From assembly GCF_000745975.1 (NCBI RefSeq), contig NZ_JQKJ01000023.1:1-61779 (forward strand): a DNA stretch of 61,779 nucleotides, read 5' to 3'. Positions within the stretch are counted from its first letter, which is position 1, and each line of letters opens with the position of its first letter. A program made the translations under genes and the position numbers. Below are positions 3,341 to 15,910 of the stretch, piece by piece. This stretch comes from Desulfobacter vibrioformis DSM 8776 (GTDB lineage: Bacteria; Desulfobacterota; Desulfobacteria; Desulfobacterales; Desulfobacteraceae). The notes under the pieces were generated by a model. It saw nothing but the letters and a program-made list of their open reading frames with translations. It was not told the origin of the DNA and did no database searches.

Positions 3341-3634
3341 GTGAGATTTGACGAAATTGTCGAACATGTTGCAGGGATAGTAAAAGAAGAATTGGACAGC
3401 AATTATAAACTGTTTTTATTCGGATCCCGCGCAAAAAATAAACATGATGAAAAATCAGATATAGACATTGGGATACTATCAGACAAACCGATCACAGCAA
3501 AGCAGATGCTGACGATACAGGAAAAACTGGAACAGATACCTACCTTATTAAAAATTGATTTTCTTGATTTTAATTCAGTAGGAGATGATTTCAAAAAAAC
3601 AGCACTCAAACATATTCAGGAAATAAAAGGGTGA
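3341..3634 (+). CDS. mntA: MntA-type minimal nucleotidyltransferase, antitoxin of a HepT/MntA pair
   Basis: 97 residues from a GTG start. The polymerase-beta-type nucleotidyltransferase signature is seen as FGSRAKNKHDEKSDIDIGI (GSxxx...SDxDxxI) near residues 27-46, with a further acidic residue in KIDFLDF near 78-82. In characterised HepT/MntA systems MntA transfers AMP to a tyrosine on HepT and blocks its RNase activity. The stop overlaps the GTG start of the HEPN gene by four bases (3631-3634), the usual arrangement for these pairs. Start choice rests on the absence of a better in-frame codon. Confidence 0.85.
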   Translation: MRFDEIVEHVAGIVKEELDSNYKLFLFGSRAKNKHDEKSDIDIGILSDKPITAKQMLTIQEKLEQIPTLLKIDFLDFNSVGDDFKKTALKHIQEIKG

Positions 3635-6570: not shown

Positions 6571-7410
6571 GTGTCTAAAATATTATTAGGTGTTTTCATG
6601 CTTTTTGCGTTGTCTGTAACGGGATGCAGTTCTTCAAAGGTAACCTGGTATAAAGCCGGATCCGGACAGGCTGATTTTAATGTTGATCATGCAGAATGCA
6701 GGATCATAGCCGAACAGATGGGAAGGGACGCAACCCTTACGGGGAAAAAAATCAGCATCAAAGCTTATGCAGAAGCGTATGAAGAATGTATTTATAACCG
6801 GGGATGGTCAAAGGAACCGCCTGCCGTAAAAAAAAATAACACTGCAGCGGAAAAAATAACACTGCTGGCTGAATTGGAGGATGACAGGGTTTCAGCGTTT
6901 AACAGACAGTTTGCAGTTCCGGAAGGATTTTTTAACACAGGCAACACAATTGCAGCAGCACAAGGTCTGAAAAATCAATTTCTGACATTCCGGAACAGTC
7001 AGGGGATGGCGTTGAATCTAACGTTCCAGCAGACTGAGAATAGAATGTTTAAAAAAAACGATTTCCCTGTGAATGATCCTTTCTTTATTTATGATAAGGG
7101 GGGAGAGCCCAAAGAAGGGGAAAAAATCAGATGGACTGTTTTTGCCGGTGAATTTCAAAACAGCTGGTTAACTGGAATCGGCTGCTATTTATTACTTGAT
7201 CCGGCAAATCGCGTCACGATAATTTTAACTTCTGAAATAAGTGGTCCTGATGGTATTCCGCCCGAAGGGTTGAGGCTGACTGAAAATCAGAAAAATGACG
7301 TGAATGCATTTCAGGAAAAATGGATTCACAATTTTAAAACAGCTTTTGGCGGATGTCCGGACTGTGAAAAGAAACATACAAAATTCTGGTGGAATATGTT
7401 TCTGAGATGA
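6571..7410 (+). CDS. Predicted outer-membrane or periplasmic lipoprotein, unknown function
   Basis: 279 residues from GTG 6571 with AGAGGGA upstream. A lipoprotein signal peptide is clear: MSKILLGVFMLFALSVTGC, with Cys19 as the lipidation site. The first mature segment (about residues 25-75) has a W...D...C...C-x-x-R-GW spacing seen in many small Gram-negative lipoproteins (AECRIIAEQ, EECIYNRGW), probably one disulfide. The rest has no domain I recognise; CPDC lies near the C-terminus. Its coding start at 6583-6620 recurs in decayed form at 4167-4204, upstream of gmd, so this gene may once have followed hepT directly. It is isolated on the plus strand and ends before a strong terminator. Confidence 0.72.
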   Translation: MSKILLGVFMLFALSVTGCSSSKVTWYKAGSGQADFNVDHAECRIIAEQMGRDATLTGKKISIKAYAEAYEECIYNRGWSKEPPAVKKNNTAAEKITLLAELEDDRVSAFNRQFAVPEGFFNTGNTIAAAQGLKNQFLTFRNSQGMALNLTFQQTENRMFKKNDFPVNDPFFIYDKGGEPKEGEKIRWTVFAGEFQNSWLTGIGCYLLLDPANRVTIILTSEISGPDGIPPEGLRLTENQKNDVNAFQEKWIHNFKTAFGGCPDCEKKHTKFWWNMFLR

Positions 7411-7527
7411 ACAGCCCATCGAATTTTGTCATGAATTCAAATAAAAAAGCCGCTGTAAACCACTAACTCCATGTGCTTCAATGCGTTGACCACGAGTTCG
7501 GAATTAGAGGTCATGCAGACCGAATTG

Positions 7528-7568
7528 ACCGCCGTTACGCAAACCATGCGAATCGGCGGTTTTTTTTT
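7528..7568 (+). terminator. Intrinsic terminator downstream of the lipoprotein region
   Basis: ACCGCCG (7528-7534) pairs with CGGCGGT (7554-7560), with GCA/TGC pairs extending the stem inward, followed by eight T residues (7561-7568). The 120 nt before it hold no gene; a short untranslated tail or an uncharacterised small RNA cannot be excluded. Confidence 0.8.
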
Positions 7569-7667
7569 GCGTTTAAAATGTCTTTCCCACACAGGGCATC
7601 AGGTTGGAAATTAAATTCCAATTCCATTAGCTTTTAAATAGCCGCCGCTCTGCCTGTTACAATTTTC

Positions 7668-7697
7668 TTGACAAATCGGAAAAACAGCATGTACATA
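7668..7697 (+). promoter_or_regulatory. Candidate sigma-70 promoter for the hydrogenase-4-like operon
   Basis: TTGACA at 7668-7673, 18-bp spacer, TACATA at 7692-7697, about 70 nt upstream of the first start codon. An 18-bp near-palindrome (TTGGAA...TTCCAA, 7604-7621) lies upstream and could be an operator; no regulator is implicated. Confidence 0.45.
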
Positions 7698-7769
7698 TCA
7701 ATGGTTTTTTCCCGGCAGGGACCTTGACGATCGAAATCTGAAATTCGAATAGAAAAAATTGGGGAAAGT

Positions 7770-9743
7770 ATGTGTCAATTATTTAGTTCCACATGCATCA
7801 TTCTGCTCGGCGGTTTTTTATCTTTGTTTTTTGCCCGGCAGAAGAAATTTTCAAAGGGCATTGCCGTGTTGTTTCTTAGCGGGGGATGTCTTTTAGGGCT
7901 GATTGATGCCGCAGGCAAACTTTTAGATCCAGCAGGGGCCGGGGCCTCGGCCTCTTTCAGGTATTTGGATCTGTTTTCTCTTTCCTTTCATGTTGACGGC
8001 CTTGCCGCCTTTTTCCTGACCGCCATATTTGCCGTTTCCCTGATGGCCGCCATTTACAGTTTCCACTACATGGGAAATGAAGAGAACGGCATTAAAACCG
8101 GTGTTAATTACTTTTTCTTCAGTGTCCTGATCGCCGCCATGGCCCTGGTAGTAACCGCCGCCAATATCCTTACCTTCATGATTTCATGGGAAATCATGTC
8201 CCTGTCCTCCTTTTTTCTGGTGATTTACAGCCATGAGTCAGCCGAAAACAGAAAGGCCGGTTATCTTTATTTTGTCTTTTCCCATGTGGGTGCCATGTTT
8301 ATCCTTGCCGCATTTGGGTTGATCTATGGTCACACCGGCAATTTTGACTTCGCGTCCCTGGCTGATGTGCCTGAAACAGTGAAAATATTGATCTTCGTGT
8401 TCTCCTTTATCGGATTCGGCTCCAAGGCCGGCGTGTTTCCCTTTCATGTCTGGTTGCCCCATGCCCATCCGGCGGCCCCCAGCCATATCTCAGCGGTGAT
8501 GTCCGGGGTGATGATCAAAACCGGCATTTACGGGATACTGCGGATTTACGCGATTCTGGATTTCCACACCCCTGTTTTCGGGTATATCACCCTGATTGCC
8601 GGCGTGATTTCCGGGATTCTGGGGGTGGTTTATGCCCTGGGCCAGCACGATATCAAGCGGCTTTTAGCCTACCACAGTGTGGAGAATATCGGAATTATCC
8701 TCATCGGCCTGGGCGTCGGGATGATTGGTGCGGCAACCGGCAATCCTCTGGTAGCTGTCCTGGGCTTTGCCGGCGGCATTCTCCATGTTCTCAACCACTC
8801 GGTGTTTAAATCCCTGCTGTTCATGGGGGCGGGCATGGTGCTGCACCAGACCGGCACCCGGTCCATTGACGCCCTGGGCGGACTGCTCAAAGGCATGAAG
8901 ATTACCGGAACAACATTTATCATGGGCTCTTTGGCCATCTGCGGCCTGCCGCCCTTTAATGGATTTGTCAGTGAATTCTTCATATATATGGGCAGTTTCA
9001 AGACCATCGCCCTGGGGTCGTCCATCAGCTTTTCCATGAGTGTGTTTGCAATTATCAGCCTGGCCGTTATCGGCGGACTGGCCCTGGCCTGTTTTACCAA
9101 GGTGGTGGGGGTGGTTTTCCAGGGAGAACCCCGGACCCTGGCCGCCGAAAATGTCAAAGAAAAAGGCTGGGCCATGATGGTTCCCATGGGGCTACTTGCC
9201 GCAGCCTGCGTGATCATCGGTGTATTCCCAAAGATGTTCATCCATATGGCCCTGAAGGCAGTGCAGGCTTTGGGCCTCGACTACGGCCGGGTTCCTGTTG
9301 AGCCCTTTGGCCAGATATCCTGTAACATCACCTTTGCGGCCCTGCTGTTCCTTGTTATGGCCCTGATTATCATGGGTATCCGGTCAACCTGCTACAAGAA
9401 CAAGACCGATAAGAACACAACATCCGGAACATGGGGATGCGGCTTTTCCCAGCCAACGGTTAAGATGCAGTATACAGGATCATCCTATGCCGGGTCCATT
9501 TTGGCGTTTTTCAGTGCTGCAGCCCCGCTTTCCGAGGATCATCCACCCATCAAGGGACGGTTCCCCCTAAAAACCCATTACCACAGCCATGTCAACGATA
9601 TTGCGGAACTTTACATGAAAAATGTGGTTGTCCGTCCTGTTTTTTACCTGTTTGACAAGCTCAGGTGGATGCAGCACGGAGATATTCATCTTTACATCGG
9701 ATATATTTTGCTGGCAATTGTGTTGCTGCTGTTTTTTATATGA
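7770..9743 (+). CDS. hyfB: HyfB-like antiporter subunit of a hydrogenase-4/complex I-type membrane complex
   Basis: 657 residues, some 15 or more hydrophobic helices, NuoL/MrpA superfamily. Proton-channel residues typical of the family are visible: Glu in ISWEIMSL, Lys in GSKAGVFPFHVWLPHAHPAA, Lys in HDIKRLLAYHSVEN and Lys in LNHSVFKSLLFMG. The start has GGGGAA immediately upstream. It is the first gene of six, consistent with a redox-driven ion pump. The subunit most resembles HyfB of hydrogenase-4. Because the large subunit of this operon lacks Ni ligands, the complex is probably not a hydrogenase, and the symbol marks homology only. Confidence 0.85.
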   Translation: MCQLFSSTCIILLGGFLSLFFARQKKFSKGIAVLFLSGGCLLGLIDAAGKLLDPAGAGASASFRYLDLFSLSFHVDGLAAFFLTAIFAVSLMAAIYSFHYMGNEENGIKTGVNYFFFSVLIAAMALVVTAANILTFMISWEIMSLSSFFLVIYSHESAENRKAGYLYFVFSHVGAMFILAAFGLIYGHTGNFDFASLADVPETVKILIFVFSFIGFGSKAGVFPFHVWLPHAHPAAPSHISAVMSGVMIKTGIYGILRIYAILDFHTPVFGYITLIAGVISGILGVVYALGQHDIKRLLAYHSVENIGIILIGLGVGMIGAATGNPLVAVLGFAGGILHVLNHSVFKSLLFMGAGMVLHQTGTRSIDALGGLLKGMKITGTTFIMGSLAICGLPPFNGFVSEFFIYMGSFKTIALGSSISFSMSVFAIISLAVIGGLALACFTKVVGVVFQGEPRTLAAENVKEKGWAMMVPMGLLAAACVIIGVFPKMFIHMALKAVQALGLDYGRVPVEPFGQISCNITFAALLFLVMALIIMGIRSTCYKNKTDKNTTSGTWGCGFSQPTVKMQYTGSSYAGSILAFFSAAAPLSEDHPPIKGRFPLKTHYHSHVNDIAELYMKNVVVRPVFYLFDKLRWMQHGDIHLYIGYILLAIVLLLFFI

Positions 9744-9779
9744 AAGCAACCAGAAGCTAATAGCTTTAAGGACTATTCC

Positions 9780-10700
9780 ATGATTCAATCCATTTTACTC
9801 TGGCTTGCAGCCATTCTGGCGGCACCGTTTTTTTCGGGCCTGATTCTCAAAATCAAGGCGTTTTTCGGTGGAAAAAAGGGGCCGCCCATTTTGATCAATT
9901 ACTACACCCTGATCAAGCTGTTTAAAAAGGGATCGGTTTACAGCAACAGCACCACCATTGTGTTTAAGCTGGGTCCGGTCATCTCCCTTGCCGCGTCAAT
10001 TACGGTTCTCATGTTTCTGCCCATTGCAGGGTTCAATCCTGTGTTCTCCTTTAACGGGGATGTGATTTTTGTCCTGTATGTTCTGGGACTTGGCCGGTTT
10101 TTCACCATTGCGGCGGCCATGGATACGGCATCTCCCTTTGAAGGCATGGGCGCGGCCAGGGAAGCGTATTTCCCCATTATCTGCGAGGCGGCCATGTTCA
10201 TGATCCTGATCTTTTTTTACCGGATCACCGGAGAACTGCAATTGTCCGCCTATTTTACGGGCAGCAACACCCTGAACATGTGGAGTTTAGCAGGCGCGCC
10301 GCTGCTGTTCATTGTGATCTCGTTTTTTATCATCCTGTTGACCGAAAATTCCAGGGTCCCGGTGGATGACCCGGCCACCCACCTTGAACTGACCATGATC
10401 CATGAAGTCATGGTCCTGGATCACAGCGGCCCGGATTTTGCGCTTATTGAACTTGGCTCTTTCTGCAAACTCATGTTCTATTCCACCATTATTTCAAGGA
10501 TGATTCTTCCCTTTGAATCCGCCATTTTCGGATTCCCGATAGTGATGTATCTGGCAGGTCTTCTGGCCGTCTACGTTGCCGTGGGCGTCACAGAGTCGGT
10601 GACTGCCAGGTATAGAATGGACAAGGTGCCCCAGTTTGTGCTGACATCCTTTGCCCTGGCTTTTTTTGCAACCATCATCACCTTGGAGTTTGTAAAATGA
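9780..10700 (+). CDS. hyfC: HyfC-like membrane anchor subunit (NuoH/HycD family)
   Basis: 306 residues with about eight membrane helices. The family signature SRVPVDDPATHLELTMIHEV near residues 190-210, followed by DHSGPDFALIE, is typical of HyfC/HycD, which anchor the hydrophilic arm and form the quinone- or ion-coupling interface. An ATG with AAGGA upstream lies 36 nt after the HyfB-like gene. The stop overlaps the next start (ATGATG at 10697), indicating translational coupling. Function is inferred from family membership and from its place in the six-gene set. Confidence 0.88.
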   Translation: MIQSILLWLAAILAAPFFSGLILKIKAFFGGKKGPPILINYYTLIKLFKKGSVYSNSTTIVFKLGPVISLAASITVLMFLPIAGFNPVFSFNGDVIFVLYVLGLGRFFTIAAAMDTASPFEGMGAAREAYFPIICEAAMFMILIFFYRITGELQLSAYFTGSNTLNMWSLAGAPLLFIVISFFIILLTENSRVPVDDPATHLELTMIHEVMVLDHSGPDFALIELGSFCKLMFYSTIISRMILPFESAIFGFPIVMYLAGLLAVYVAVGVTESVTARYRMDKVPQFVLTSFALAFFATIITLEFVK

Positions 10701-11350
10701 TGTTCAATCCCGTTGACATAATTCTATCCTTTGTGCTGTTGTCGGTTCTGTTTTCATTCGGTGCCGACCGGGTACTGACATTGATCAAACTGGTGGGGTT
10801 CCAGGGCGTCGTAGTTTCCATTATTCCCTTTTTCATCGGTGATCATATGAGTACCGGCGGCACGGTGTTTACCCTGGCCACCCTGGTCATCCGGGGGGTT
10901 ATTATCCCTTTGAGTATTTTTGTGGCCATCAGAAAGGGGGCTATCCGGAGGGTGGTTGAACCCATTGTGGGGTATCATGCCTCCATTTTGTGCGGCCTGG
11001 CAGTGATCATCGGCACGACCTATCTGTCCGGACGCCTGGATATCGGTTCCGTGAGCGGGTTTAAACTCCTGGAGCCTACGGCCATTGCCCTTCTGGCAAC
11101 GGGAATGTTTCTGCTTATGGCCCGGAGAAACGCCATTGCCATGGTTATCGGCTACATCATGATGGAAAACGGGATTTACTTAGTCGGATCAGGCTTGTCC
11201 GTCAGTACCCGCCATATTGTTGAATTCGGTATTTTGCTGGACGTACTGGCCGGAGTCATGATCATGATGATCATGGCCGTGATCCTCCGTAATATTAAAC
11301 AGACCTTTGACGACGTGGATACGGCGTTGCTCAGAACCTTAAAGGATTAG
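10697..11350 (+). CDS. hyfE: HyfE-like membrane subunit (NuoK-related)
   Basis: 217 residues, about seven hydrophobic helices, with no soluble domain. Length and placement between HyfC- and HyfF-like genes match HyfE, whose C-terminal half resembles NuoK (for example the segment AIVIG-like AIAMVIGYIMMENGIYLVG, with a buried Glu). In complex I the NuoK glutamates take part in proton transfer. The start overlaps the hyfC-like stop by four bases; the stop is three bases before the hyfF-like ATG. Assignment is mainly by context and helix pattern. Confidence 0.82.
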   Translation: MMFNPVDIILSFVLLSVLFSFGADRVLTLIKLVGFQGVVVSIIPFFIGDHMSTGGTVFTLATLVIRGVIIPLSIFVAIRKGAIRRVVEPIVGYHASILCGLAVIIGTTYLSGRLDIGSVSGFKLLEPTAIALLATGMFLLMARRNAIAMVIGYIMMENGIYLVGSGLSVSTRHIVEFGILLDVLAGVMIMMIMAVILRNIKQTFDDVDTALLRTLKD

Positions 11351-11353
11351 GGT

Positions 11354-12796
11354 ATGGTTGAAATAATAATTCTGACCCCGTTTATTGCCGGTCTTATCGT
11401 ATTTTTCGTATTTTCAGCATTTTCCCTGCCAAAAAGTATTGGCCGGTTCCTGCTGGTGCTGACCGGAGCAGTTCACCTGACACTTTCGTTTATGCTGTGG
11501 AGGAATCATCCCCAGGCGATTTTCGATCAATATTTTGCAGTGACACCCGAAGGCATGCTTTCCCTGCTGGTGATTTCCCTGCTCTTCTTTTTGATCTCCG
11601 TTTACACCGTGGGCTTTCTCAAAGAAAGCCAGATCCCGTCCGAAAGCCTTTTTACCGGCTCCATGCTGGTGTTCCTGTCCACCATGACCATGGTCACCCT
11701 GTCCAACCATATCATGGTCATGTGGATCGCCATTGAAGCCACCACCCTGGCAAGCGCCCCTTTGATTTACACCCATCGCTCCGCCGCCTCCCTTGAGGCG
11801 ACCTGGAAATATGTTCTCATCTGTTCGGTGGGTATTGCCATGGCCCTTCTGGGGTCTGTTCTGGTGGTCTTTTCCATGGGCCAGGCAAATGCAGGCACGC
11901 CCATCTCTTTTTCCGCCCTGACCGGGGTGGCCAAAACCCTGGATCCCCTGTGGCTCAAGGCCGGCTTCGTCTTTATCCTGGTGGGATACGGTACAAAAAT
12001 GGGGCTTGCGCCCATGCACACCTGGCTGCCAGATGCCCACAGTGAGGCCCCAAGTCCTGCATCTGCCCTTTTATCAGGGGTCTTGCTCAACTGCGCTTAT
12101 CTTGGGATTTTCAAAACCAATAAAATTATGGTGGCGGCAGGGCTGCAGGATTTTTCAGGCGGGATTCTCATGGTGTTTGGCCTGTTATCCATTCTGGCCG
12201 CAGCCACCTTTATCCTTAAACAAAACGAATACAAACGGATGCTGGCCTACTCCAGCATCGAAAATATGGGCATTATTGCATTTGGAACCGGTGTGGGCGG
12301 CTTAGGGGTATACGGCGCGGTGATCTGCATGATCCACCACAGCCTGATCAAATCCTCTTTGTTTCTTTCATCGGGAAACATTCTTCTGGGATACGGAGAC
12401 CGGCTGATCAAGAATACCGGGAACCTGGTCAAGGGCATGCCCCGGACCTTTGTGGCCTTTTTTGCAGGATTTGCCGGGATTGCCGGGTTTCCCCCTTTCG
12501 GCCTTTTTATCGGGGAACTTTGCATTATTCTCGCGGCGTTCAGGGCCGGTTTCCACGTGGCTGTCACTGTTTTCATCCTGAGCCTGTGCGTCATTTTTGC
12601 AGGGTTTGGCAACCAGGTCATGAAAATTTGTTTTGAAGACTGTAATACCGCTATCAAAATTAAAGAAAAGGCCTGTATGGTCTGGCCCCAGTATCTATTA
12701 CTCCTGACTTCACTGATCTTGTGTTTCTATATCCCGGATTCATTGAATCAAACCATATCCGATGCAGTAACAGCCATTGGCGGAGGACTTAGATGA
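11354..12796 (+). CDS. hyfF: HyfF-like antiporter subunit (NuoN/NuoL superfamily)
   Basis: 480 residues, about 14 membrane helices. Family features are Glu in WIAIEATTLASAPLIY, Lys in GTKMGLAPMHTWLPDAHSEA, Lys in NEYKRMLAYSSIENMG and HHSLIKSSLFLSSGNILLG. These mark a second antiporter-like module in the same operon, as in hydrogenase-4. The complex would thus have two such channels besides the HyfC/HyfE-like part. The stop overlaps the next start (ATGA at 12793-12796). It is well conserved, with no sign of decay. Confidence 0.87.
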   Translation: MVEIIILTPFIAGLIVFFVFSAFSLPKSIGRFLLVLTGAVHLTLSFMLWRNHPQAIFDQYFAVTPEGMLSLLVISLLFFLISVYTVGFLKESQIPSESLFTGSMLVFLSTMTMVTLSNHIMVMWIAIEATTLASAPLIYTHRSAASLEATWKYVLICSVGIAMALLGSVLVVFSMGQANAGTPISFSALTGVAKTLDPLWLKAGFVFILVGYGTKMGLAPMHTWLPDAHSEAPSPASALLSGVLLNCAYLGIFKTNKIMVAAGLQDFSGGILMVFGLLSILAAATFILKQNEYKRMLAYSSIENMGIIAFGTGVGGLGVYGAVICMIHHSLIKSSLFLSSGNILLGYGDRLIKNTGNLVKGMPRTFVAFFAGFAGIAGFPPFGLFIGELCIILAAFRAGFHVAVTVFILSLCVIFAGFGNQVMKICFEDCNTAIKIKEKACMVWPQYLLLLTSLILCFYIPDSLNQTISDAVTAIGGGLR

Positions 12797-14307
12797 GCAA
12801 CGCTTTTTTACAGATTTCAAATGCCGAAAAAGTCTCTCGTGAGGCCATTCCCCACCTTTCTTTTGATGAATTCCGAAGCCAGGCCCTGGGATTGGTAACC
12901 GACGGAGGCAAAATTGTCCACTATTTTGCCTACCCGGACAAGGACCGTTTAAAACTTCTGGCGGTGTTGCGCACCGACAAACTTTTTGTGGCCGGCTGTG
13001 ATGTGCCGGACCCCTACCCTTCATTCACCCGAATCTGCGAACCCTTTCATCTGTTTGAGCGGGAAATGGCAGAGCAGTACGGTATCCGTCCCCATGGCCA
13101 TCCCTGGCTGAAAATGGTCCGATATCATCCCAGCTACGCTGAAGGGGCAGCGGACGTGTTCGGCAATGACTATTCCCAGGACATCCCGGGAAATTATAAG
13201 TATTACCAGGTGGAAGGCGAGGAAATCCACGAGGTGGCTGTAGGGCCGGTCCATGCCGGGGTAATTGAGCCGGGCCATTTCAGGTTCAACTGCATCGGAG
13301 AGCGAGTCCTGCACCTGGAAATCCAACTGGGATACCAGCACCGGGGCATTGAAAAACAGCTTCTGGAGGTCCCGGCCAAGCGGCTTTCCATCCTTGGTGA
13401 AAATATTGCAGGCGATACGACCATCGGCCACAGCCTGTGTATGGCCCAGAACCTGGAAGCACTGACCGGGGTTCAACCGGACCAAGGTGCCCGGGTTATC
13501 CGGACCATTGCCCTGGAACTGGAGCGTCTGGCCAACCACATCGGTGATCTCGGGGCCCTGAGCGGCGACGTTGCATTTCTGCCGCCGGCCAACTATTTTG
13601 GCAGGATCAGAGGAGATTTTCTCAACCTTTCCCTCTTGATTTGCGGCAACCGGTTCGGCAAGGGTCTGGTCAGGCCCGGCGGGGTCCGGTTTTCCCTGTC
13701 CGATGATATTAGAACAGTATTCAATGAACGCCTGGCAGCGCTTCGGCCCGAAGTGACACACGTCCTGGCGCTTCTGTTCAACGCCGTCACCGTCCGGGCC
13801 CGGTTTGATGGATGCGGGGCGGTGAGCCATGAAGATGCCGATCATCTCGGACTGGTGGGCCCGGCTGGCCGGGCCAGCGGAATGGCCTATGACGTGAGAC
13901 GGTGTTTCCCCACGGAACACTACCCGCACCTGGACATCCCGGAAAATAAAAAAGCCACGGGGGACGTCTATGCCAGGGCCCGGGTCAGGTATGACGAGAT
14001 CCTCCAGTCCCTCCAGATTGTTGAATCCCTGGCCGCCACCCCTGTGGAAACCCGGTGTGTAACTGAAGGCATGGCCTACGACCTGCCGGCTTCAAGCTTT
14101 TCCGTGGCCCTGAACGAAGCCTGGCGGGGGGAAGTCTCCCATGCCGTCCTGACCGATGAAAAGGGGAAAATACTAAGGTACAAGATCAAGGATCCCTCTT
14201 TTCACAACTGGAATGGGCTGGCCATGGCGCTCAGAGATACCGAAATATCGGATTTCCCCCTGAATAACAAGAGTTTCAATCTATCCTATTGCGGATTTGA
14301 TCTATAG
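12793..14307 (+). CDS. HyfG-like large subunit (NuoC-NuoD fusion) lacking NiFe ligands
   Basis: 504 residues. The first about 140 residues are NuoC-like (FEREMAEQYGIRPHGHPWLK near 88-107); the rest is NuoD/hydrogenase large-subunit-like. In true hydrogenase-4 enzymes the first metal motif is R-x-C-G-x-C; here residues 202-214 read GENIAGDTTIGHS, without cysteine. The C-terminal DPCxxC motif is replaced by DPSFHNWNG. So all four Ni-binding cysteines are absent. This fits the energy-converting hydrogenase-related (Ehr) type of complex, whose substrate is unknown, rather than an H2 enzyme. The gene is intact and within a tightly packed operon, so loss of metal ligands looks ancestral rather than decay. 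Confidence 0.85.
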   Translation: MSNAFLQISNAEKVSREAIPHLSFDEFRSQALGLVTDGGKIVHYFAYPDKDRLKLLAVLRTDKLFVAGCDVPDPYPSFTRICEPFHLFEREMAEQYGIRPHGHPWLKMVRYHPSYAEGAADVFGNDYSQDIPGNYKYYQVEGEEIHEVAVGPVHAGVIEPGHFRFNCIGERVLHLEIQLGYQHRGIEKQLLEVPAKRLSILGENIAGDTTIGHSLCMAQNLEALTGVQPDQGARVIRTIALELERLANHIGDLGALSGDVAFLPPANYFGRIRGDFLNLSLLICGNRFGKGLVRPGGVRFSLSDDIRTVFNERLAALRPEVTHVLALLFNAVTVRARFDGCGAVSHEDADHLGLVGPAGRASGMAYDVRRCFPTEHYPHLDIPENKKATGDVYARARVRYDEILQSLQIVESLAATPVETRCVTEGMAYDLPASSFSVALNEAWRGEVSHAVLTDEKGKILRYKIKDPSFHNWNGLAMALRDTEISDFPLNNKSFNLSYCGFDL

Positions 14308-14325
14308 AAAAGCGGAGAATATCAT

Positions 14326-15066
14326 ATGCTCAGTATACTGAAAAACAGATTTGAACAAGGATACAAGACCAACCGGTATCCCGAAGAACAGGTCAAGATA
14401 TTTCCCCGCTACCGAGGCAAACCCGTTATCCAGAATAATATTCATAGGGAGACCCTTGAAACCTGTGCCGCATCCTGCCCCCAGGATGCCATAGATGTGC
14501 AGAATCAAAAGATCGACATGGGTCGGTGCGTATTTTGCGGGACCTGCGAGAATATCTCCAACGGGCAGATCCGGTTTACCAATGACTATGAAATTGCCAC
14601 ATCCAAGCGGGCAGACCTGATAACATCAGGCGATCTTCCGGCCCTGGCCGAGCACGCCAAACAGCACTTCAAAAAACTGTTTGGACGCTCCCTGCAATTG
14701 CGCCAGGTGTCGGCGGCTGGCTGCAATGCCTGTGAAGCAGACCTCAACGTTCTGGCTACCCCGTTTTTTGACCTGGCCAGATTTGGCATCAACTTTGTCG
14801 CCTCCCCCCGTCATGCCGACGGGATTGTGGTCACAGGCCCGGTATCCAGGAACATGAAAACAGCCCTGCTCCAGACCTATGAGGCCACACCGGCGCCAAA
14901 GGTGGTCATTGCCGTGGGCTCATGCACCATCAGCGGCGGTCCTTTCACCGGAAGCCCTGAGATCACCGAAGGTCTGGACAAAATCCTGCCGGTAGATCTG
15001 TTTATCCCGGGGTGCCCGCCCCACCCCATGACCAACCTTCACGCGCTGCTTTCCTTTTTTAAATAA
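14326..15066 (+). CDS. HyfI-like small subunit fused to a one-cluster ferredoxin domain
   Basis: 246 residues. Residues 1-95 are ferredoxin-like but reduced. The first motif keeps only C-x3-C-P (ETCAASCPQDAI) and the second keeps C-x2-C-x2-C without the final Cys-Pro (GRCVFCGTCENIS). Together they supply four ligands in the right places for a single [4Fe-4S] cluster plus one spare cysteine. Residues 120-246 are the NuoB/hydrogenase small-subunit fold, with CNACE, VGSCTISGG and PGCPPHP giving four ligands for the proximal cluster. ATG start with GCGGAGAA upstream. It is last in the six-gene operon, 18 nt after the large subunit. Electrons would pass between an unknown carrier and the ion-pumping arm. 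Confidence 0.85.
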   Translation: MLSILKNRFEQGYKTNRYPEEQVKIFPRYRGKPVIQNNIHRETLETCAASCPQDAIDVQNQKIDMGRCVFCGTCENISNGQIRFTNDYEIATSKRADLITSGDLPALAEHAKQHFKKLFGRSLQLRQVSAAGCNACEADLNVLATPFFDLARFGINFVASPRHADGIVVTGPVSRNMKTALLQTYEATPAPKVVIAVGSCTISGGPFTGSPEITEGLDKILPVDLFIPGCPPHPMTNLHALLSFFK

Positions 15067-15142
15067 TTCGAGGGGGGATGAACCACAAAATTTCTTCTAT
15101 GCTTTTTGCTCGTTCTCATACTGTTTTCCTGTTTCAGGAGAA

Positions 15143-15910
15143 TTAAGCCCTGGCCAGAACAAGGACGGATACACTGGCAGCCCCGGCATCCACAAGGGTC
15201 TGGGCCGCGGCATTGCAGGTAGATCCAGTGGTGAACACATCATCCACCAAAAGGATGTTTTTACCTTTGATAAGGCCAGGCTCAGGGCAGGCAAAGGCCC
15301 GGGCCAGATTCTTTTTCCGGGCCGTGTGGTCAAGGCCGGTCTGGCTGACCGTTGCCCGGACCCTGGCAAGACAGCGGATGTCAATGCGCCATGGTGCTGG
15401 CCGGCCACAGGCATCCTTGTACAGCCGGGAAAAATTTCGGACAAGGAGATAGGACTGGTTGAATCCGCGCTTTCTGGCCTTTGAGATATGAAGGGGAATG
15501 GGCAGGACCAGATGAAAACGATTCATGTCAAAATGGGTGGCAAAGGCCTGGAACAGGTGGCGTTCAAGGGGACGGGCCAGGCTGAGCTTTGACTGGTATT
15601 TAAACAATCCCAGGGCTTTTTGTATTAAATCCTTATAGATAAATGCGGCCCGGACCCTCTCCATGACCATGGGGGTTTTCAGGCAGGCTTCACACAGATG
15701 GTCAGGCCCGGATTCAAAACCCCGGCCGCAGGCAGGGCAGAAGGGATGATCAAACACCGGCAGCGTCTGCCCCAGGCACCCGTGGCAAAAGCATACGCTT
15801 AACGGGTTATCAGTGTTTTTTTTAATATATTTGCCGCATCCCAGGCATTTGTCCGGAAATACCAGGGCGCAAAACCTCAGCCCCATGGCTTTGACCAATT
15901 TTTTTATCAT
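15143..15910 (-). CDS. comF: ComF-family phosphoribosyltransferase-like protein
   Basis: 255 residues. The N-terminal zinc-finger-like part has CLGCGKYI, CFCHGCL, CPACGRGF and CEACL (residues 17-75). The C-terminal part has the PRPP-binding motif ILLVDDVFTTGSTC near 222-235, typical of type I phosphoribosyltransferases. Family members are linked to DNA uptake in competent bacteria and to helicase partners, but most such genes in Desulfobacterota are untested. It is last in a minus-strand group; its ATG meets the rlmB stop (TGATG). It is convergent with the hydrogenase-4-like operon across a 76-nt gap in which I see no clear terminator. Confidence 0.88.
   Translation of the reverse strand: MIKKLVKAMGLRFCALVFPDKCLGCGKYIKKNTDNPLSVCFCHGCLGQTLPVFDHPFCPACGRGFESGPDHLCEACLKTPMVMERVRAAFIYKDLIQKALGLFKYQSKLSLARPLERHLFQAFATHFDMNRFHLVLPIPLHISKARKRGFNQSYLLVRNFSRLYKDACGRPAPWRIDIRCLARVRATVSQTGLDHTARKKNLARAFACPEPGLIKGKNILLVDDVFTTGSTCNAAAQTLVDAGAASVSVLVLARA

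Follow-up and report, generated by a model that had tools for sequence, protein, structure and literature searches.

The Ehr operon of Desulfobacter vibrioformis DSM 8776: a large subunit without nickel ligands and its gene neighborhood in relatives

The operon and its nickel-free large subunit

The window analyzed here is the whole stretch of 61,779 nucleotides that makes up contig NZ_JQKJ01000023.1 of Desulfobacter vibrioformis DSM 8776 (forward strand; assembly GCF_000745975.1; contig C22), taken from a draft genome of 4.47 Mb in 86 contigs that is 95.4% complete. Near its left end, six open reading frames (ORFs) on the + strand encode what is almost certainly an energy-converting-hydrogenase-related (Ehr) complex and not a hydrogenase. 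Such Ehr (Ech/energy-converting-hydrogenase-related) complexes are reportedly the subject of works by Coppi 2005 and Marreiros 2013. Coordinates below refer to the window; numbers with G, L, and C designate genomes, loci, and contigs of the source genome, respectively. The six genes are as follows (aa, amino acids).

7770..9743, + strand: HyfB/NuoL-like antiporter subunit (EhrA), 657 aa; Pfam Proton_antipo_M/N
9780..10700, + strand: HyfC/NuoH-like anchor subunit (EhrB), 306 aa; Pfam NADHdh
10697..11350, + strand: HyfE-like subunit (EhrC), NuoK-like in its C-terminal half, 217 aa; Pfam Oxidored_q2
11354..12796, + strand: HyfF/NuoN-like antiporter subunit, 480 aa; Pfam Proton_antipo_M
12793..14307, + strand: NuoC-NuoD/HyfG-like large subunit (EhrL), 504 aa, Ni ligands absent; Pfam Complex1_30kDa and Complex1_49kDa
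14326..15066, + strand: EhrS, 246 aa, a fusion of a HyfH/NuoI-like ferredoxin domain and a HyfI/NuoB-like small subunit; Pfam Oxidored_q6

Neighboring ORFs overlap or are separated by short gaps, and all six are co-directional and strongly conserved; they are also intact, as a preliminary description of this DNA had claimed. The four HyfB/C/E/F-like membrane subunits and the NuoC-NuoD fusion of that description likewise agree with the Pfam assignments (two Proton_antipo_M proteins, one NADHdh and one Oxidored_q2, and Complex1_30kDa with Complex1_49kDa in one ORF). EhrA scored 583.5 bits against the NCBIfam model for hydrogenase 4 subunit B, under the model cut-off of 667. The order HyfB-C-E-F-L-S is common to most inspected loci that have the complete stretch. 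No gene for an NADH module (NuoEFG), HyfA, or formate dehydrogenase was detected by Pfam in the six ORFs and the four adjoining them, the rest of the genome not having been searched for NuoEFG.

HycE is the best solved relative of EhrL by sequence (E 3.6e-41), and the AlphaFold model of EhrL (predicted local distance difference test, pLDDT, 87.9) has HycE as its top fold match in the PDB (7z0s_E; template modelling (TM) score 0.88), with NuoCD next. The pocket was judged from the alignment alone, which gives the following elements.

13267..13269, + strand: E159, counterpart of the proton-donating Glu193 of HycE
13408..13419, + strand: A206-G-D-T209, in place of C241-G-I-C244 of HycE
14191..14211, + strand: DPSFHNW (467-473), conserved, aligned with AATYANW of HycE
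14278..14304, + strand: N496-L-S498-Y-C500-G501-F-D-L504, counterpart of DPCYSCTDR of HycE and the last residues of the protein

Loss of the first Ni motif, as previously claimed, was confirmed, with C241 and C244 of HycE corresponding to A206 and T209. The second motif had been assigned to the wrong place: DPSFHNWNG (467-475), held to replace DPCxxC, was rejected as its counterpart by alignment with HycE, HyfG, and NuoCD. Instead, C531 and C534 of HycE correspond to S498 and G501 at the C-terminus, and a Cys stands at position 500. None of 46 EhrL relatives carries Cys at any of the four Ni-ligand positions. Position 206 is Ala in 44 and Ser in 2, position 209 is Thr in 44, Ala in 1, and Ser in 1, and both S498 and G501 are present in all 46, with many surrounding residues invariant too; Cys500 is found in 45, the exception being L129. 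In group 4 [NiFe] hydrogenases, a C-terminal tail is cut off by a maturation protease. EhrL has no such tail after its DPCxxC counterpart and stops where NuoCD stops, at a point where HycE and HyfG carry a further stretch.

In the formate hydrogenlyase structure (PMC9474812, in the portion of the text available), Glu193 of HycE is the proton donor, R478, D529, S283, H284, E437, and R395 form the canopy and relay, and complex I has a quinone-binding His in the loop of Glu193. The seven HycE residues, in the same order, correspond to E159, R445, N496, N248, H249, E402, and R360 of the window protein; E159, R445, H249, and E402 are kept in 46 of 46 EhrL sequences and R360 in 45, and the canopy Asp is replaced by Asn in 44. 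The column of the complex I quinone His is I158 in EhrL, and the quinone Tyr position of the complex I 49-kDa subunit presumably corresponds to G207, so that the pocket itself gives no favor to quinone. A hydrogenase-like proton relay with neither metal ligands nor quinone pair points to a third kind of pocket: as predicted by alignment, the EhrL pocket is a third solution on the hydrogenase/complex I fold, neither a NiFe site nor a canonical quinone site.

The electron path and the membrane arm carry the following signatures.

EhrS (14326..15066, + strand): C51, C68, C71, and C74, [4Fe-4S] ligand set of the ferredoxin domain; C133, C136, C200, and C230, N2-type set
10353..10394, + strand: EhrB motif RVPVDDPATHLELT; NuoH counterpart RHPFDQPEAEQEL, HyfC counterpart KIPFDVAEAEQEL

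C51, C68, C71, and C74 are each present in 76 of 78 EhrS homologues, and the N2-type ligands in 75-77. The other ferredoxin-domain ligand set is broken in the window EhrS, which a motif recount shows to be a mark of the window subclade: the first set is missing in all 21 close EhrS, and the other 57 comprise 43 with both full motifs, 5 with the first only, 2 with the second only, and 7 with neither in full. The retained ferredoxin-domain cluster is, by analogy with complex I, presumably the one adjoining N2. The predicted iron-sulfur (Fe-S) wire of the window subclade is shortened, comprising one ferredoxin-domain cluster and the N2-type cluster. The channel Lys and Glu residues previously described as intact in two antiporter-like subunits are indeed present and conserved. 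In EhrA these are E141, K219, K250, K347, and E402, kept in 65 of 65 HyfB-like sequences. In the HyfF-like subunit they are E128, K215, K333, and E388, with Asn at the Lys position of transmembrane helix 8, as in E. coli HyfF; among 77 HyfF-like sequences, the window included, K215 and K333 are found in 77, E128 in 75, and E388 in 71. All 72 HyfC-like sequences share the R, P, DDP, and THLELT of the motif RxPxDDPxTHLELT; NuoH, HyfC, and HycD carry (R/K)xPFDxxEAEQEL at this place.

The "clear promoter" of the preliminary description was not recovered: a scan listed no sigma-70-like site in 7410-7770, the eight such sites over 7300-15300 equal the number expected by chance (mean 7.4, standard deviation 2.4), and the TTGACA at 7668-7673 has, by eye, no good -10 element. 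In window 7520-7570, between the upstream gene and the operon, an inverted repeat (ACCGCCG...CGGCGGT) with a run of nine T behind it was seen by eye, not being among the features that the scan listed; it is likely the terminator of the upstream gene.

Phylogeny and gene neighborhood in relatives

An unrooted tree of 67 large subunits (356 columns, LG+G4) resolved three Ni-less classes, A (with the window), B, and C, with A, A+B, and A+B+C each at support 100; HycE/HyfG and other cysteine-bearing sequences fall outside them. The preliminary description had named two results that would overturn its Ehr-type reading, namely placement within true hydrogenase-4 and a cysteine-bearing large-subunit gene next door. 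The tree puts the window class outside hydrogenase-4 with support 100, and no such gene adjoins the operon; in the source genome, PF00374 matches lie only on contigs C13 and C1 and PF00346 matches only in the EhrL gene. The Ehr-type reading is thus borne out by the six-gene cluster, the loss of Ni ligands in 46 of 46 sequences, the clade apart from HycE/HyfG, the absence of a gene for an NADH module, HyfA, or formate dehydrogenase among the six ORFs and the four next to them, and the gene order common to most inspected loci.

Class A in the tree, which was built without the G. sulfurreducens GSU0739-45 proteins, includes the Geomonas/Geobacteraceae loci L102 and L109, as well as loci from records named Planctomycetota, Verrucomicrobia, Omnitrophota, Lentisphaerae, Acidobacteria, and Treponema. 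Among the matches listed, EhrL is 92% identical to the Desulfobacter latus copy (L092), and full-length copies in congeneric genomes show 92-93% identity. Some EhrL match was found in 67 of 86 genomes of the family, distant hydrogenase or NuoD-like matches included, and a window-type EhrL (at least 65% identity) in 57. In a phylum sample of 297 genomes, class A occurs in 52, class B in 11, and either in 61. Ehr is widespread, with at least 577 relatives confirmed among at least 585 pattern matches in a genome scan.

The other classes differ in motif and gene order. Class B (L192-L197) has an RVSGDST-type motif and NQSYSGHDL-type ends, with Ser, Ser/Thr, Ser, and Gly at the ligand positions and Ser at the class A Cys500 position; that of L192 is preceded by an HTH-EIIA gene (described below) and has two HyfB copies, and in G148 and G238 class A and class B large subunits occur together, ~14 kb apart. 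Class C (L198-L201) has an RF(S/T)GTS-type motif, FGLSNAECDR-type ends, and the order HyfC-(HyfE)-HyfF-L-S-HyfB. Two HyfB copies also occur in the class A operons L087, L095, L103, L112, L130, L136, L167, and L210, a seven-gene form that recalls EhrA-1/EhrA-2 of Geobacter.

One recurrent neighbor of Ehr genes is a protein of 223-293 aa (HTH-EIIA) that joins an excisionase/MerR-type helix-turn-helix (HTH) to a phosphotransferase system EIIA-2 domain of PtsN/fructose type. In 35 of 81 loci (some of which have upstream sequence cut by contig ends), its gene immediately precedes the first Ehr gene on the strand, always within 361 bp, 33 times before HyfB and twice before EhrL. In the phylum sample, the count used class A/B large subunits only (leaving out class C and a 33% match in G171), 32 HTH-EIIA matches with E <=5.5e-57 plus another 20 of full length, and a single TrkH match per genome. 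Thirty of the 32 strongest homologues are located within 15 kb of a class A/B large subunit, the exceptions being G090, with an Ehr fragment on another contig, and G329; four of the next 20 are near Ehr. Conversely, 33 of the 61 Ehr genomes have an HTH-EIIA gene within 15 kb. TrkH (at least 64% identity) and Ehr occur together in 48 genomes, within 15 kb in 15 and within 25 kb in 19. Because the named loci and genomes overlap (L060 = G048, L068 = G226, L088 = G380, L092 = G013), these samples do not count as independent.

Another recurrent neighbor is a hexapeptide protein of 470 aa, homologous to PDB 3c8v, a "putative acetyltransferase" (E 2.5e-163), and weakly to CcmM. Its count considered the 57 family genomes with EhrL at >=65% identity (including fragments in G075, G044, G047, G051, G034, and G032, and leaving out copies of 47-48%, namely the second copy of G012 and that of G057, along with matches of ~30%) and 72 of 73 hexapeptide genomes, a fragment in G005 being set aside. 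Both genes are present in 52 genomes, on the same contig in 40 and within 12 kb in 35; for a genome of 5 Mb and a reach of 12 kb to each side, simple arithmetic puts the chance at ~0.5% per genome. The 35 near genes are downstream on the same strand in 22 cases, upstream on the same strand in 10, and downstream on the opposite strand in 3. For instance, L164 reads HyfB-C-E-F-L-S-HEX-EIIA on one strand, and L092 of D. latus reads TrkA-TrkH-HEX-HyfB...S, also on one strand. L168 (G021) has hexapeptide paralogues (76% and 64% to the query) on both sides of one Ehr operon. The three-His site of gamma-carbonic anhydrases is not seen in the alignment or in an hhalign comparison with CaiE (probability 67.7), so the protein is named only CcmM/gamma-carbonic-anhydrase-like.

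Some loci also carry an LCIB-like protein of 393 aa. Because its Pfam matches (18-27 bits against a cut-off of 25) are insufficient by themselves, its profile was compared with that of true LCIB, genes for which (>170 bits) occur elsewhere in 8 genomes. The profiles match (E 1.2e-6, probability 90.7), and their Cys-x-Asp-Glu, His, and Cys-Gly motifs line up (CSDE, SHVG, and SCG versus CRDE, HIA, and ACGA of true LCIB). In L167 and L210 the LCIB-like gene is the first of LCIB-HTH/EIIA-HyfB-... on one strand, with gaps below 70 bp. Strong LCIB-like copies lie beside Ehr in 4 of 14 cases in two genome samples, and three more are in L065, L066, and L075. SulP permeases are near a few Ehr loci, a frequency without background comparison. 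In planctomycete locus L118, a SulP permease fused to a P-II-like domain (10383-12368, + strand) lies near EhrL/EhrS genes, and another Proton_antipo_M gene is at 7060-8448.

The link of HTH-EIIA, TrkAH, hexapeptide, or LCIB-like genes to Ehr is new here: no report of it was found in the literature searched, as far as its text was available, with bioRxiv and most subscription papers outside the scope, and the accessible Ehr literature does not mention this neighborhood. The source genome of the window has a hexapeptide homologue (C23:33273-34679, 62%) and TrkH (C23:23441-24889, 70%) on one and the same contig and an HTH-EIIA gene on C5 (55%). The search of this genome turned up no LCIB-like gene.

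Proposed role and rival explanations

With its six-gene make-up, lack of Ni ligands, and complex-I-type membrane arm, the window complex resembles the known Ehr complexes, and its subclade differs from 43 of the 57 others in having one ferredoxin-domain cluster where these have both. It shares HyfB, C, E, F, G, and I-type subunits, the EhrL-HycE fold, and the Glu193 and Arg478 relay positions with E. coli hydrogenase-4 and formate hydrogenlyase (HyfA-I, HycA-I), but has no Ni ligands, HyfA, HyfD, or maturation tail, has Asn for the canopy Asp529, and has the ferredoxin domain fused to the small subunit. Similarly, it has NuoB/CD/H/I/L-N-like parts, with EhrL ending at the NuoCD C-terminal position, but differs from complex I in lacking NuoEFG in the operon and adjoining genes, in having I158 and G207 for the quinone His/Tyr pair, and in its Glu in the beta1-beta2 loop. 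Mbx and Mbs of Pyrococcus are, like Ehr, related to group 4 hydrogenases, lack Ni, and have ion-pumping arms. The match of EhrL to HycE (3.6e-41) is much stronger than that to PDB chain 6u8y_L (3.7e-19), which we take to be Pyrococcus Mbs. In some Ehr operons, a complex-I-type ion subunit is genetically tied to a carbonic-anhydrase-like partner, as in NDH-1MS and MpsAB/DAB. Ehr differs from MpsAB/DAB in having a full Q module and Fe-S clusters, and the carbonic-anhydrase-like gene accompanies it in a minority of cases only.

The function of Ehr is called unknown in the available text of PMC12342949 (2025), PMC10284858, and PMC6728331. Read from sequence, Ehr is a predicted redox pump of the complex I superfamily in which another, strongly conserved pocket has taken the place of the NiFe site. 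Electrons would reach EhrS from a soluble donor of low potential; ferredoxin is the simplest and the probable candidate because the operon has no NADH or formate module. From the N2-type cluster they would pass to an acceptor at the E159/R445/N496-S498-C500 pocket, for which menaquinone, entering next to HyfC, is the simplest choice. The kept Glu-Arg-His-Glu-Arg relay would take up protons, this uptake would be linked to the HyfC cavity and to both antiporter-like subunits, and the released energy would move H+ or Na+ through the subunits of HyfB and HyfF type. A ferredoxin-fed pump with quinone as acceptor is an evenly balanced proposition.

Since the Ehr genes of relatives sit with HTH-EIIA, TrkA/TrkH, the CcmM-like hexapeptide, and in some cases LCIB-like genes, the leading proposal, with a likelihood slightly short of even, is that the complex keeps ions and pH (K+/H+/HCO3-) in balance and is itself controlled by the phosphotransferase system. 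E. coli EIIANtr regulates the K+ transporter TrkA, according to the title of a reference in PMC9239096; this, together with the fusion of a PtsN-like to a DNA-binding domain beside Ehr and the presence of TrkAH beside Ehr in the family of the window, suggests a K+/pH role under such control. Carbonic-anhydrase-like partners allow, and do not show, a CO2/HCO3- role. A fuller version is improbable, namely a redox pump that is gated by the phosphotransferase system and balances both K+/pH and inorganic carbon. The PtsN-like HTH-EIIA switch would belong to this pump, TrkAH and carbonic-anhydrase-like (LCIB-type or CcmM-like) partners would cooperate with it, and some lineages would use its redox-driven ion pumping for CO2 hydration or bicarbonate retention. 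If true, a phosphotransferase-gated Ehr would be the anaerobe's counterpart of NDH-1MS. The regulator family, found almost exclusively next to Ehr, and the recurrent transport and carbonic-anhydrase-like neighbors narrow the open function to a few growth and vesicle assays.

Several observations weigh against this account of the donor, acceptor, and role. EhrL lacks the quinone His/Tyr pair, and the low-confidence parts of its model are the pocket loops themselves (153-158, 180-182, 259-262, and 500-504). The neighborhood is guilt by association and partly lineage-correlated; 28 of the 61 Ehr genomes have no HTH-EIIA gene within 15 kb, and TrkH is not within 15 kb in 33 of 48. The Ehr contig of the window genome, whose left end is 7.8 kb from the operon, carries none of these neighbors, so the functional inference comes from relatives. 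In Geobacter, finally, Ehr subunits were abundant on formate by proteomics (PMC7894505), and a 2026 paper describes Ehr there as non-functional and drifting (PMC13194489), both according to the portions of text available.

This last description, and homology itself, would fit a degenerate or misassembled hydrogenase-4, an extremely unlikely explanation given replacement residues that vary little or not at all among 46 sequences of many phyla, a separate clade, and the 92-93% identity of full-length congeneric copies; a sequencing error or a decayed hydrogenase was ruled out by that conservation and the tree. The formate proteomics speaks for another possibility, in which a formate dehydrogenase feeds EhrS and the membrane arm conserves energy, in effect a formate hydrogenlyase without the hydrogenase. 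Such an FDH-Ehr complex has been proposed in other lineages from fdhA and nuoE/F-like genes (PMC6349859, in its available part), but is rather improbable here: the six ORFs include no HyfA/HycB-like connector, the window EhrS has lost one ferredoxin-domain cluster, and the twelve neighbor clusters recurring in at least 4 of 81 loci (five annotated by Pfam, the rest by eye or as antisense frames) include no formate dehydrogenase, most single neighbors being unannotated.

Ehr may alternatively replace complex I as the ferredoxin:menaquinone oxidoreductase of Nuo-less sulfate reducers, serving energy conservation and not ion balance. The fold and electron path are as in complex I, and the source genome has no other PF00346 gene, but the missing quinone His/Tyr pair, the altered HyfC cavity motif, and the occurrence of Ehr in genomes with further large-subunit homologues make this substitution unlikely. 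An inorganic-carbon pump, in which an associated carbonic anhydrase would hydrate CO2 because the redox reaction keeps removing protons, has precedents in cyanobacterial NDH-1MS/CupA and in MpsAB/DAB (PMC6981117, PMC8552792, in the text available). In its favor are the LCIB-like gene with catalytic motifs, which heads two Ehr operons and adjoins Ehr elsewhere, the CcmM-like hexapeptide gene within 12 kb in 35 of 52 genomes, and the few nearby SulP permeases. However, the LCIB assignment is weak by Pfam, with a poor AlphaFold model (pLDDT 48); 4 of 14 strong LCIB-like genes adjoin Ehr, and the window genome has none; the hexapeptide has only one of the three gamma-carbonic anhydrase His in place (alignment read by eye), and its closest solved relative is named a putative acetyltransferase. 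Such a pump is therefore distinctly unlikely.

TGA-containing HycE-like hydrogenases

Separately from Ehr, HycE-like hydrogenase genes at L205, L206, and L207 and in genomes G170, G096, and G245 have two in-frame TGA codons, each exactly where the first motif (ERI-U-GI-U-G) has a Ni-ligand Cys; in L205 these are at 3524-3526 and 3515-3517 on the - strand. The C-terminal DPCFSCTER is intact in L205-L207. In the same three loci, an identical 19-base stem-loop, CACAGTA-CGTGT-TACTGTG, lies nine bases past the second TGA and is present in 5 of 6 minimum-energy folds. These sequence features suggest that the TGA-bearing proteins are likely a double-selenocysteine group 4 hydrogenase. Further matches with in-frame TGA occur in G134, G267, and G094.

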